53,189 nucleotides of DNA. It comes from a virus. The position numbers and the translations under genes are program-made. Position 1 is the stretch's first letter. Each line of letters begins with the position of its first letter. Of the stretch, positions 30,731-38,199 are shown one piece after another. The notes below the pieces were generated by a model. The model was given only the letters and a program-made list of their open reading frames with translations, did no database searches and was not told where the DNA came from. The stretch covers positions 1 to 53,189 of the IMG/VR virus record IMGVR_UViG_3300025769_000160; one strand, written 5' to 3'.

Positions 30731-31132
30731 CTAGCACTTCCATCTTTTTCTAGCCTGACGCAGCCGGGAGTTAGGGTCTTTAGCCGCTTCTGGAAACTTC
30801 TTCATTTGTCCCGCAGAACGCGCACAATAAGACTTACGCCTCTTCGCTGCTTTACTTCCCTTTTTAACATCGCCAGTAACCGCACCCTTTAGCTTAGAGC
30901 CGGGGTTAGCCGCACGATAGGCCTTAATGCCCTTCTCAGTCATTCCAGCGCCCTGTTTAGTAGGTCGCTTCATTCCTTTGCCTTTGGGCATTACATCCGG
31001 TTTACGAACTCCACCGCCCTTTGCATAGTCCTTACGGCTAATCGCGGCTACCTTCTCAGATTGCCGCTTGTGCATCTGGGAAGCTTTGTTTAGCTCCTTG
31101 GAGATTTGCTGGAGTTGTTCTTTGGCTGGCAC
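30731..31132 (-). CDS. Basic phage protein (DUF6321-like)
   Basis: 133 residues. GAGMTEKGIKAYRAANPGSK, KLKGAVTGDV and KAAKRRKSYCARSAGQMKK are a conserved block of a small phage protein family I would label DUF6321. An N-terminal helix (about 1-30) precedes it. Function unknown. It shares a base with the stop of the metallothionein-like gene. Confidence 0.65.
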   Translation of the reverse strand: MPAKEQLQQISKELNKASQMHKRQSEKVAAISRKDYAKGGGVRKPDVMPKGKGMKRPTKQGAGMTEKGIKAYRAANPGSKLKGAVTGDVKKGSKAAKRRKSYCARSAGQMKKFPEAAKDPNSRLRQARKRWKC

Positions 31133-31377
31133 TATTCCATCTCCACCGTTGGTTCCGCCCAGCCACTCGTTGCAAAACCAGTGGTTCTTTTATACTGTTT
31201 CTTACAGCAGCAGTCTCCACAGTCACATTGGGGACAAGGGGCTGACTCATGCTCAGAAGTAGATGTAGCTTCTGCACAGTGACATCCTTTGGAATCACAG
31301 TTGCAAGAGGCACAGAAGTTATCAGTGGTATGATTAAGCATGGTAAACGCCGCGTAAGGCCCTTGAGTATAAGGCAT
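31132..31377 (-). CDS. Cysteine-rich metallothionein-like protein
   Basis: 81 residues from ATG 31377; an in-frame GTG at 31434 would add 19 residues. Eleven Cys fall between residues 22 and 58 as CASCNC, CHC, CPQC, CDC and CCC, with a His in CHC and others nearby. No aromatic residues occur within the Cys region. This is the composition of metallothioneins, which chelate Zn or Cu. It is the first gene of the late operon. Zinc-ribbon origin is less likely because of clustered CxC pairs. Confidence 0.6.
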   Translation of the reverse strand: MPYTQGPYAAFTMLNHTTDNFCASCNCDSKGCHCAEATSTSEHESAPCPQCDCGDCCCKKQYKRTTGFATSGWAEPTVEME

Positions 31378-31500
31378 GTTAAATTTCTTTTTAATTTTAT
31401 GAAAAATGCAGCTAGTACAGTCGTGTCTCAACACTCTCTAGGAGGAATATATTTTATATTGTTGATAGAGTGTAGACAGGCTAGTAGCTGCTAATTAACT

Positions 31501-31528
31501 ATTATAGTGCGTGTGAGGAAGTTGTCAA
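31501..31528 (-). promoter_or_regulatory. Strong sigma70-type promoter for the late leftward operon
   Basis: Minus strand: perfect TTGACA (31523-31528) and perfect TATAAT (31501-31506), 16-nt spacer, giving a start near 31494. It faces the virion operon and diverges from the plus promoter 31 nt away. A consensus host promoter for late genes is notable. Confidence 0.75.
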
Positions 31529-31558: not shown

Positions 31559-31586
31559 TTGACAAATCTGAAATGAGGTGTATAAT
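31559..31586 (+). promoter_or_regulatory. Strong sigma70-type promoter facing a gene-free region
   Basis: Plus strand: perfect TTGACA (31559-31564) and perfect TATAAT (31581-31586), 16-nt spacer, start near 31593. A GTAAT-N4-TTACT box (31588-31601) overlaps the start. No protein gene follows; a terminator occurs about 280 nt on. Confidence 0.75.
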
Positions 31587-31587
31587 A

Positions 31588-31786
31588 GTAATTACATTAC
31601 TCCGGGGGGTTTAATATATATACCCTATTAATATTAGCCCATATTGTAATATAATTACTCAAATAACCCCCATAAGCGTAATATAATTACTATATATACC
31701 CTAAGGCATTGATAAATAATAAAAAAATTATAAAAAGGGTAAAAAATACAAAAAATACATGGGGATTGCATACAGATATATACCCA
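31588..31786. repeat. AT-rich repeat cluster (operator or origin-like)
   Basis: Three boxes GTAAT-N4-TTACT lie at 31588-31601, 31646-31659 and 31678-31691; the last two are identical (GTAATATAATTACT), with starts 32 nt apart. Two perfect copies of TATATATACCCTA lie at 31615-31627 and 31691-31703, with a partial third copy (TATATACCC) at 31776-31786. Surrounding DNA is very AT-rich. Such iterons are typical of operators or replication origins. Confidence 0.55.
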
Positions 31787-31893
31787 CCCCCAGTGGCCCA
31801 TGCGCGCCCCCTTTAAGCTAAGTATTTGTTTTTATTGATGTTAATCAATATCCATAATATACATTCACACTCCCCGGCCTCCGGGGTTTTTTT
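31593..31893 (+). ncRNA. Putative ~300-nt noncoding RNA
   Basis: A consensus promoter at 31559-31586 and a strong intrinsic terminator at 31872-31893 frame this stretch on the plus strand. The only ATG frame of note is 20 codons with no ribosome site. The transcript would run opposite to no known gene. An origin-transcription or antisense/decoy RNA is possible. Defined by signals only; no RNA family recognised. Confidence 0.45.
31872..31893 (+). terminator. Intrinsic terminator
   Basis: CCCCGG-CCT-CCGGGG followed by seven T: a 6-bp all-GC stem, 3-nt loop and U tract on the plus strand. It would end transcripts from the promoter at 31559. Confidence 0.85.
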
Positions 31894-32092
31894 ATGTCCA
31901 CACGCCACAAAAAGGGCGGCTAATATGCTTAGGCTCACACCCGCGCTGTTTCAATACTACCGACAAGTTTATGCATCCTACTTTTTGAACTGTTTTGATG
32001 GGGCAAGGGCGTGCAATACAAACCCTCGCAGGAAAGCCCCAGTGCAATAAGTTCGTGGAATATCTGCAGGATAGGGGATATTCACCGGGCAT
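31894..32092. other. Gene-free stretch with a possible structured element
   Basis: No convincing protein gene on either strand. The plus strand can fold GGGGC (32000-32004) on GCCCC (32036-32040) with an inner GGG/CCC pairing. Frames of 41 residues (plus) and 71 residues (minus) are present but lack ribosome sites, and the minus one starts in a terminator. Confidence 0.4.
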
Positions 32093-32118
32093 AAAAAAGG
32101 GGAGCATAAAGCCCCCCT
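32093..32118 (-). terminator. Intrinsic terminator of the 32-34 kb unit
   Basis: Minus strand AGGGGGGC-TTTAT-GCTCCCCT followed by a run of T (complement of AAAAAA at 32093-32098). One G-U pair in the stem. It ends the DUF932 unit and insulates it from the control region. Confidence 0.8.
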
Positions 32119-34977: not shown

Positions 34978-35232
34978 TTATCCTGCATTAAATGATGCAC
35001 AAATTATAGCACCGGGATAGATGTCATCGTCAGGTTCACCCACGACTTCACCCAGATATATCAACTCTACTAAGTCAGGGCGTGATACCCAATTATCGTA
35101 TAGCAAAAAGTCATCTGATCCATCACAGGGATGTATCTTCTGTGCTTCTTCTGCACTGTTGGCAACCACTACAGCACTGTCGAAAGTGTCGTAGCCCCTG
35201 TTAATATTCTGGTATATCTTAAATAGTTTCAT
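34978..35232 (-). CDS. Conserved small phage protein
   Basis: 84 residues from ATG 35232, overlapping the upstream stop (TAATG). MKLFKIYQNINRGYDTFDSA and VVVANSAEEAQKIHP resemble phage hypotheticals. Acidic, alpha/beta. Function unknown. Confidence 0.6.
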   Translation of the reverse strand: MKLFKIYQNINRGYDTFDSAVVVANSAEEAQKIHPCDGSDDFLLYDNWVSRPDLVELIYLGEVVGEPDDDIYPGAIICASFNAG

Positions 35233-35876
35233 TATGCTACTTCCTGTAATGTTTCGGTAAACCAATTTGGTACAGATCGATTAGTCCACTTTGCAAAGTA
35301 TGCCTTATCACCGACATAATATGCCCTGTAAGCAGACACAACATCATCAAGAGAGGCAGAGTTAGGATTACACTTGTAGTGGTCAGGCATACATTGTGGC
35401 GGTGCTGTTCTTACTCCTGAAAGTAATGTTTTATACATTATGTTCTTAGGGGAATAAAACAAGTTTTCCAGCGTAGCGGCCTTGTGTACTTTGTCATAGC
35501 GGTGCATGTACTCAATACCGAGATAGCCCCATAGGTCCGACAACCAGTTGTAGTTGCCACGGGCTAGCCTTGCCCAAACAGCACTAGGATGGTTCTTGTA
35601 TGCCGCTAGATATATAGGGCATTTATCTGGAACAAGAATACCGTCATCGTTGTAAAAGTCTCCCTCTAGATGGTAGTGCTTGTAGTTTTCTTTAACAGTA
35701 TAGGTTTTATTTTTTTTGGAGTAGGACATTTTAGAAACTACACAAACTTCCCCGTCTAAGATTCGGTGCGCTGTAGATAACAATTGAGCAGTTTCCGTTA
35801 TCATTTTTACAACGTGTTTGTCACAGTGCATTTCCGCTGCAATCTTGGGGTTTTTATCTAGGTAGAATATATTCAC
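35232..35876 (-). CDS. Conserved phage protein with DKHVVKM motif
   Basis: 214 residues from GTG 35876 (GGGAGG 7-8 nt upstream); an upstream ATG is less likely. VNIFYLDKNPKIAAEMHCDK and HVVKMITETAQLLSTAHRIL is a pattern common in phages; a distant link to pyrimidine-dimer glycosylases (His/Lys/Glu cluster) has crossed my mind but is not supported by more than that. Confidence 0.55.
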   Translation of the reverse strand: MNIFYLDKNPKIAAEMHCDKHVVKMITETAQLLSTAHRILDGEVCVVSKMSYSKKNKTYTVKENYKHYHLEGDFYNDDGILVPDKCPIYLAAYKNHPSAVWARLARGNYNWLSDLWGYLGIEYMHRYDKVHKAATLENLFYSPKNIMYKTLLSGVRTAPPQCMPDHYKCNPNSASLDDVVSAYRAYYVGDKAYFAKWTNRSVPNWFTETLQEVA

Positions 35877-36028
35877 CGCTGCTCCTCCCAACGTAACTTT
35901 ACAAGCTCATTAGCTAATATTTCTTTTTCTCCATTAGATATAATGGCATTGCCTAAATCTGATAACGCTTCATAATACATTTCAGATATTCTATCTTCGT
36001 TACTTCCCTCAGTCTCAGGCACACTCAT
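35873..36028 (-). CDS. 51-residue acidic protein
   Basis: ATG 36028 with GGAG upstream, stop overlapping the next GTG (GTGA). Sequence begins MSVPETEGSNEDRISEMYY and is largely helical and acidic. Unknown function; coupling indicates the same operon. Confidence 0.6.
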   Translation of the reverse strand: MSVPETEGSNEDRISEMYYEALSDLGNAIISNGEKEILANELVKLRWEEQR

Positions 36029-37872: not shown

Positions 37873-38199
37873 CTACTCAAACTTAGTTTCGTCAGTAAAC
37901 ACATGGTTTATATGATCGACTAAAACAGATTGCAGAGTATCAAGATTTATATTCCTATACCCTTTTGCTTTGAGATCATACACGGTTAACATACTCTTTG
38001 ATGTATTACAATCTCTACCGCCTTTAATATGTTTCTTAACATTTAGTCGGGCATTCATTCTACGGACAGTCCCATCCGCTTTTACAAACTCCGCTGTAAA
38101 GATTTTATCTTGGACGGTAGCCTCAACCACGCGGCGCATGATATCGGCATTTGACAATCTGGGGGAATAGATAGTAACTACTTCATTCACGGCATTCAC
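37873..38199 (-). CDS. SH3-barrel-like early phage protein
   Basis: 108 residues. FTAEFVKADGTVRRMNARLN, LTVYDLKAKGYRNINLDTLQ match a family of small beta-barrel phage proteins. First gene of the leftward early unit, with the divergent promoter immediately upstream. Role unknown. Confidence 0.65.
   Translation of the reverse strand: MNAVNEVVTIYSPRLSNADIMRRVVEATVQDKIFTAEFVKADGTVRRMNARLNVKKHIKGGRDCNTSKSMLTVYDLKAKGYRNINLDTLQSVLVDHINHVFTDETKFE

Follow-up and report, generated by a model that had tools for sequence, protein, structure and literature searches.

On balance, we read the rightward transcription unit near 31.6 kb as a moron-like cargo slot, empty here, on the rightward side of a conserved region of divergent promoters in an HMO-2011-type marine podophage. 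The RNA of the window (the whole 53,189-bp viral record that was analysed) is probably the leftover transcript of this emptied gene slot, the control DNA of which is still conserved. In our model, the rightward promoter P_R would produce a short RNA, probably of ∼300 nt, with its 3′ end at 31893. In most relatives this RNA would be an mRNA, with a ∼40-aa basic protein, a 2OG-Fe(II) oxygenase or a further small protein as its product, whereas in the window lineage the cargo gene has lost its start and frame, which leaves the RNA noncoding. A putative dimeric regulator that binds phased GTAAT-N3-ATTAC palindromes may control P_R, and a conserved noncoding stretch further downstream (block 1) may be a second protein site. 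The features are collected in Table 1.

Table 1. Features of the locus and gene content of the slot in related lineages (positions are those of the window; L numbers denote related loci)
Feature	Position or lineages	Strand	Remarks
P_L, sigma70 promoter TTGACA-16-TATAAT, 12/12	31501..31528	-	reads left into packaging/structural genes; perfect at every related locus
P_R, sigma70 promoter TTGACA-16-TATAAT, 12/12	31559..31586	+	heads rightward unit
Palindrome GTAAT-TAC-ATTAC	31588..31600		covers expected start site; same position in L129, L130, L132
Palindrome GTAAT-ATA-ATTAC, array copy 1	31646..31658		60-64 nt past the -10 box in nearly all relatives
Palindrome GTAAT-ATA-ATTAC, array copy 2	31678..31690		32 bp from copy 1
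Relic of C-terminal half of ∼40-aa basic gene	31703..31760	+	reads KALINNKKIIKRVKNTKN; start codon lost, frame shifted; compare L091, L093, L114
Block 1, noncoding	31760..31812	+	TTGCAT (31766-31771) ... GTGGCCC (31793-31799), both invariant in 20 lineages
AT-rich conserved stretch	31817..31863	+	GCTAAGTATTTGTTTTTATT...ATATCCATAATATACA
Intrinsic terminator of rightward unit	31872..31893	+	CCCCGG-CCT-CCGGGG then T7; hairpin -10.2 kcal/mol
Block 2, conserved, beyond terminator	31961..32019		ends GGGCGTGCAATAC
Terminator of leftward operon on right side	32098..32118	-	insulates region; in nearly all relatives
Slot with ∼40-aa basic protein	L093, L096, L101, L130, L091, L100
Slot with 2OG-Fe(II) oxygenase upstream of basic protein	L096, L098		PF13640, E 5e-15
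Slot with oxygenase without basic protein	L181, L191
Slot with oxygenase reaching contig end	L190
Slot with unrelated ∼60-aa protein	L103, L175, L184
Slot without intact ORF	window, L114, L137, L176, L180, L182, L185

Genomic setting and the divergent promoter pair

HMO-2011-type phages count among the dominant marine viruses (PMC9038755). In its genes for DNA polymerase, helicase and primase the window is related to this type, and its DNA polymerase shares 47% identity with the enzyme of the Pelagibacter phage HTVC033P and 35–40% with those of HMO-2011 and the CRP roseophages. Genes run leftward from 1.9 to 31.4 kb and from 32.1 to 38.2 kb, rightward replication genes occupy 38.3–48.2 kb, and the interval of 31.43–32.1 kb is intergenic and separates the two leftward gene blocks. 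The unit from P_R to the terminator is thus oriented opposite to the flanking operons, and the 200 bp from 31537 have the lowest GC content of the whole window (24.5%).

Three leftward genes of the window are recorded here as observations in their own right. Directly behind P_L (31132–31434) lies the gene for a Cys/His-rich 100-aa protein containing QCDCGDCC, possibly a small metal-binding protein, for which a PHROG comparison gave no match. It is followed by a 133-aa protein (30731–31132), the C-terminal half of which occurs in hundreds of marine viral contigs and in pelagiphage records. In Pfam, the product of 36098–36553 matches the C-terminal domain of malonyl-CoA decarboxylase (E 2e-9); it is possibly an accessory gene product of the acetyltransferase fold.

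In dinucleotide shuffles, perfect promoters occurred at 0.02 per window, and none of 300 shuffles contained a divergent pair, of which the real window has exactly one. Moreover, P_R and P_L both match 12/12 in all of the ∼26 distinct related leaders, a number counted by hand from our table, with wrong-orientation duplicates excluded and four members of the window's own clade included. Third codon positions of the neighbouring genes of the relatives are 32–75% identical to those of the window, so retention of the pair at 12/12 despite this divergence argues for strong selection on it. Among the relatives, several records are nearly identical to the window and many have diverged from it, and the clade of the window is nearly uniform (L005 has 0 differences over ∼526 nt, where ∼5 are expected), so that conservation inside that clade is a weak test. 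Sequence conservation supports a real transcription unit, and the 5′ end of its RNA would lie at ∼31592–31594, downstream of P_R. The loci L173, L178 and L189, which matched the leader pattern by chance, and L133–L135, which had the neighbouring gene alone in common, were discarded.

A first-pass annotation of this DNA had described a near-perfect sigma70 promoter that faces right into a stretch with no gene and ends at a strong terminator. The promoter is in fact a perfect match, a hairpin and T7 close the unit, and the stretch is free of intact genes, since no ORF of at least 60 aa was found on the plus strand between P_R and the terminator; a 74-aa TTG frame begins only at 31826 and continues across the terminator. 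The AT-rich repeats that the transcript was said to span are real and locus-specific, and the predicted unit crosses the 200 bp in which the AT content of the window is highest.

The position near the terminase genes, which lie 1.7–4.6 kb leftward, and the conservation of sequence without coding would suit a packaging (pac/cos) or recombination site with an incidental transcript. Such a site leaves the perfect promoter, the terminator and the exchange of cargo described below unexplained, and the paper on the HMO-2011-type group that was searched has nothing on genome ends, nor on promoters or origins. We consider it very improbable.

An exchangeable gene position, decayed in the window

The relatives carry a basic protein, an oxygenase, a ∼60-aa protein, two of these, or none (Table 1), always flanked by a leader and a 3′ block that are both conserved, and in most of them the rightward transcript is, as its gene content indicates, an mRNA. 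The oxygenase ORFs of L181, L190 and L191 are near-identical. The leaders of L191 and of L137 and L185 are near-identical as well, yet L191 holds the oxygenase and the slot of the other two is empty. The ∼40-aa basic protein has the consensus MxxKxKKxPKKRNPFYKELAxLGHKVLKNKKIYSRKGKK, and its ORF is under purifying selection, with pairwise pN/pS mostly of 0.2–0.5; pairs that involve the aberrant L129 and L100 reach values of up to 1.0. Every relative that tblastn detected for this protein sits in this slot. Searches of Pfam, NCBIfam and PDB gave no relative, and the L100 version has a sole match, to phrog_20887 of unknown function (E 1.8e-5). A suspected likeness to the ribosome-rescue factor ArfA gained no support from the Pfam and PDB searches and was dropped. 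L007 (reverse strand, ∼100–360 nt past P_R) has lost block 1, and its basic ORF is extended to an 83-aa frame, which may represent a fused or read-through version of the slot.

What the empty lineages have in common is a remnant of the basic gene that comes from its C-terminal half and has no start codon, e.g. ..PKALKNNKKLLKKGKK* in L114. In the window, a leader-like repeat stands in place of the N-terminal half, and A-runs have shifted the frame. Hence the predicted RNA of the window is noncoding because its cargo gene decayed, through loss of start and frame. The earlier statement that the RNA is not explained by any gene holds insofar as an intact gene is absent; it does not hold insofar as a decayed relic is present here and cargo genes occupy the unit in relatives.

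It might be supposed that a short protein is still translated, from a 35-aa TTG frame at 31709 or from plus-strand frames across block 2, as the relic frame is open as far as 31816 and ‘CFDG.ACNT’ recurs in one plus-strand frame of block 2. We find this scarcely credible: the start codon is not consistent, indels in A-runs place the relics of L114 and of the window in different frames, the ORF has lost its N-terminal half, and a consistent ORF start for block 2 was found on neither strand.

In the sister clade, the terminator of the unit is retained as an identical hairpin in L129, with a G-U pair in L132, and as a different hairpin at the corresponding position in L130; in lineages other than these and the window, no terminator was seen at that position. 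Retention through a different hairpin, a promoter-to-terminator unit without intact ORF, and a C-rich, strongly conserved block 1 are what a trans-acting regulatory or decoy RNA would display, with block 1 as a conserved unpaired seed. However, most relatives are without the terminator at this position, Rfam 15 gave no family match at the gathering score (matches at a lax threshold were chance only), and folding of the RNA was no more stable than that of shuffles (z +0.50, −0.30, −1.45). A tRNA search of the locus found none. The covariance search among related phages that had been suggested as a check detected no covarying structure in block 1: its RNAalifold consensus fold contained no compensatory changes, and two hand-drawn helices were not convincingly above controls. 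Structured trans-acting RNA is therefore not supported. Moreover, the core of block 1 has no second copy or complement within the window. We regard a trans-acting regulatory or decoy RNA as improbable here.

Phased palindromes, block 1 and the question of an origin

The 53 kb contain three copies of the palindrome GTAATNNNATTAC, where 0.04 are expected, and all of them lie at the locus (31588, 31646, 31678); GTAAT-N3-ATTAC is restricted to this locus in 15 of 18 related records, as it is in the window. In lineages that have the array, copy 1 begins 60–64 nt past the −10 box, with the exception of L100 (72 nt), and the two copies are spaced by 21 bp, or two helical turns, in every other lineage that has both; in the window clade the distance is 32 bp, or three turns. 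The half-sites are invariant among relatives, and the palindromes are missing from L091 and L007. The 21-bp spacing could have been a coding artefact (seven codons), but stops after each repeat in L103-type leaders rule this out. In block 1, the spacing from TTGCAT to GTGGCCC is 20–24 nt in the 20 lineages, and L103 equals the window over 41 nt with 0 differences, although its neighbour gene g133 has third positions that agree with the window at 42%. A search of 84,980 genomes found block 1 in no host and no prophage. Blocks 1 and 2 were seen to share ATTGCA and C-rich motifs, inverted relative to each other.

Invariant half-sites, helical spacing and the lack of covariation favour DNA-binding sites over folded RNA. 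Since promoter, palindromes and block 1 are conserved without cargo, they must have a function of their own. Together with the exchange of cargo, the evidence for DNA sites leads us to a regulated slot, emptied here, whose control sites would be retained for protein binding. Two genes of the window, at 35232–35891 and at 37873–38199 (the latter a WYL_2 gene), are candidates for encoding a DNA-binding protein.

The same elements may be arranged as a replication origin, in which the palindromes are iteron-like initiator sites, transcription from P_R opens or primes the DNA, and block 1 is a second site. A priming or origin role had been raised for this transcript, and the locus-specific phased palindromes fit it, as do the position of the locus in the lowest-GC 200 bp of the window and conservation that does not depend on cargo. 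Mycobacterial prophages provide examples of RNA-based origins that involve a noncoding RNA (PMC7157519). The skew gave no help: a third-position GC skew hinted at a sign change, which fourfold sites did not confirm, as these had no consistent sign change at the locus, either in the window or in seven relatives, where the symmetric promoter pair may have caused some contigs to be oriented wrongly. Moreover, no initiator gene was recognized adjoining the locus, and L091 and L007 are without palindromes. We judge an origin unlikely.

One observation speaks against the cargo slot, namely that several diverged empty lineages still hold a perfect promoter, which a pure cargo slot should lose. Thus the unit must do more than carry cargo, and the slot reading assigns this to the putative regulators. 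A dual-purpose element would account for a perfect promoter and sites after gene loss: the palindromes and block 1 would form a transcription-activated origin combined with the exchangeable slot, and the RNA would be needed for replication with the cargo riding along. We rate this combination as somewhat less likely again than an origin by itself.

Relation to known systems and significance

Phage morons are accessory cargo genes, each equipped with a promoter and a terminator of its own (PMC2147016). Like these, the locus has its own promoter (P_R is 12/12 in all members), its own terminator in the window, L129, L130 and L132, an orientation opposite to the flanking operons, and a gene content that is present, absent or exchanged among relatives. 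It differs in that the accessory gene, intact in relatives, is a decayed relic in the window, in that the control elements and the slot occur in all relatives and outlast gene decay, and in that a palindrome array and a 3′ block are added to the unit. Iteron-type origins, such as the RepA sites of P1, likewise have phased locus-specific repeats in AT-rich DNA, whereas the repeats here are short palindromes in 1–3 copies, with no adjacent initiator gene recognized and no support from skew. The RNA-based origins of cluster A mycobacteriophage prophages (PMC7157519) resemble the locus in their short noncoding intergenic transcript, but belong to another phage group, and the transcript here appears as an mRNA in most relatives.

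The isolate Pelagibacter phage HTVC033P (MZ892993, near 51.5 kb) has a similar divergent-promoter gap beside its terminase small subunit gene, with a perfect left promoter, an 11/12 right promoter, and a rightward gap of ∼420 nt near 51.6–52.0 kb, closed by a leftward terminator; the leader and block 1 are not recognizable there by sequence. This gap (L120, 24500–25030) is unannotated in the isolate.

A ‘noncoding RNA’ called from a single genome can thus turn out to be a gene unit that has been emptied. For this phage group, the locus provides a defined divergent promoter region with a slot where accessory genes, e.g. 2OG oxygenases, come and go. The palindrome array, on our reading, would have to have a cognate protein, and the HTVC033P isolate offers a comparable region for testing.
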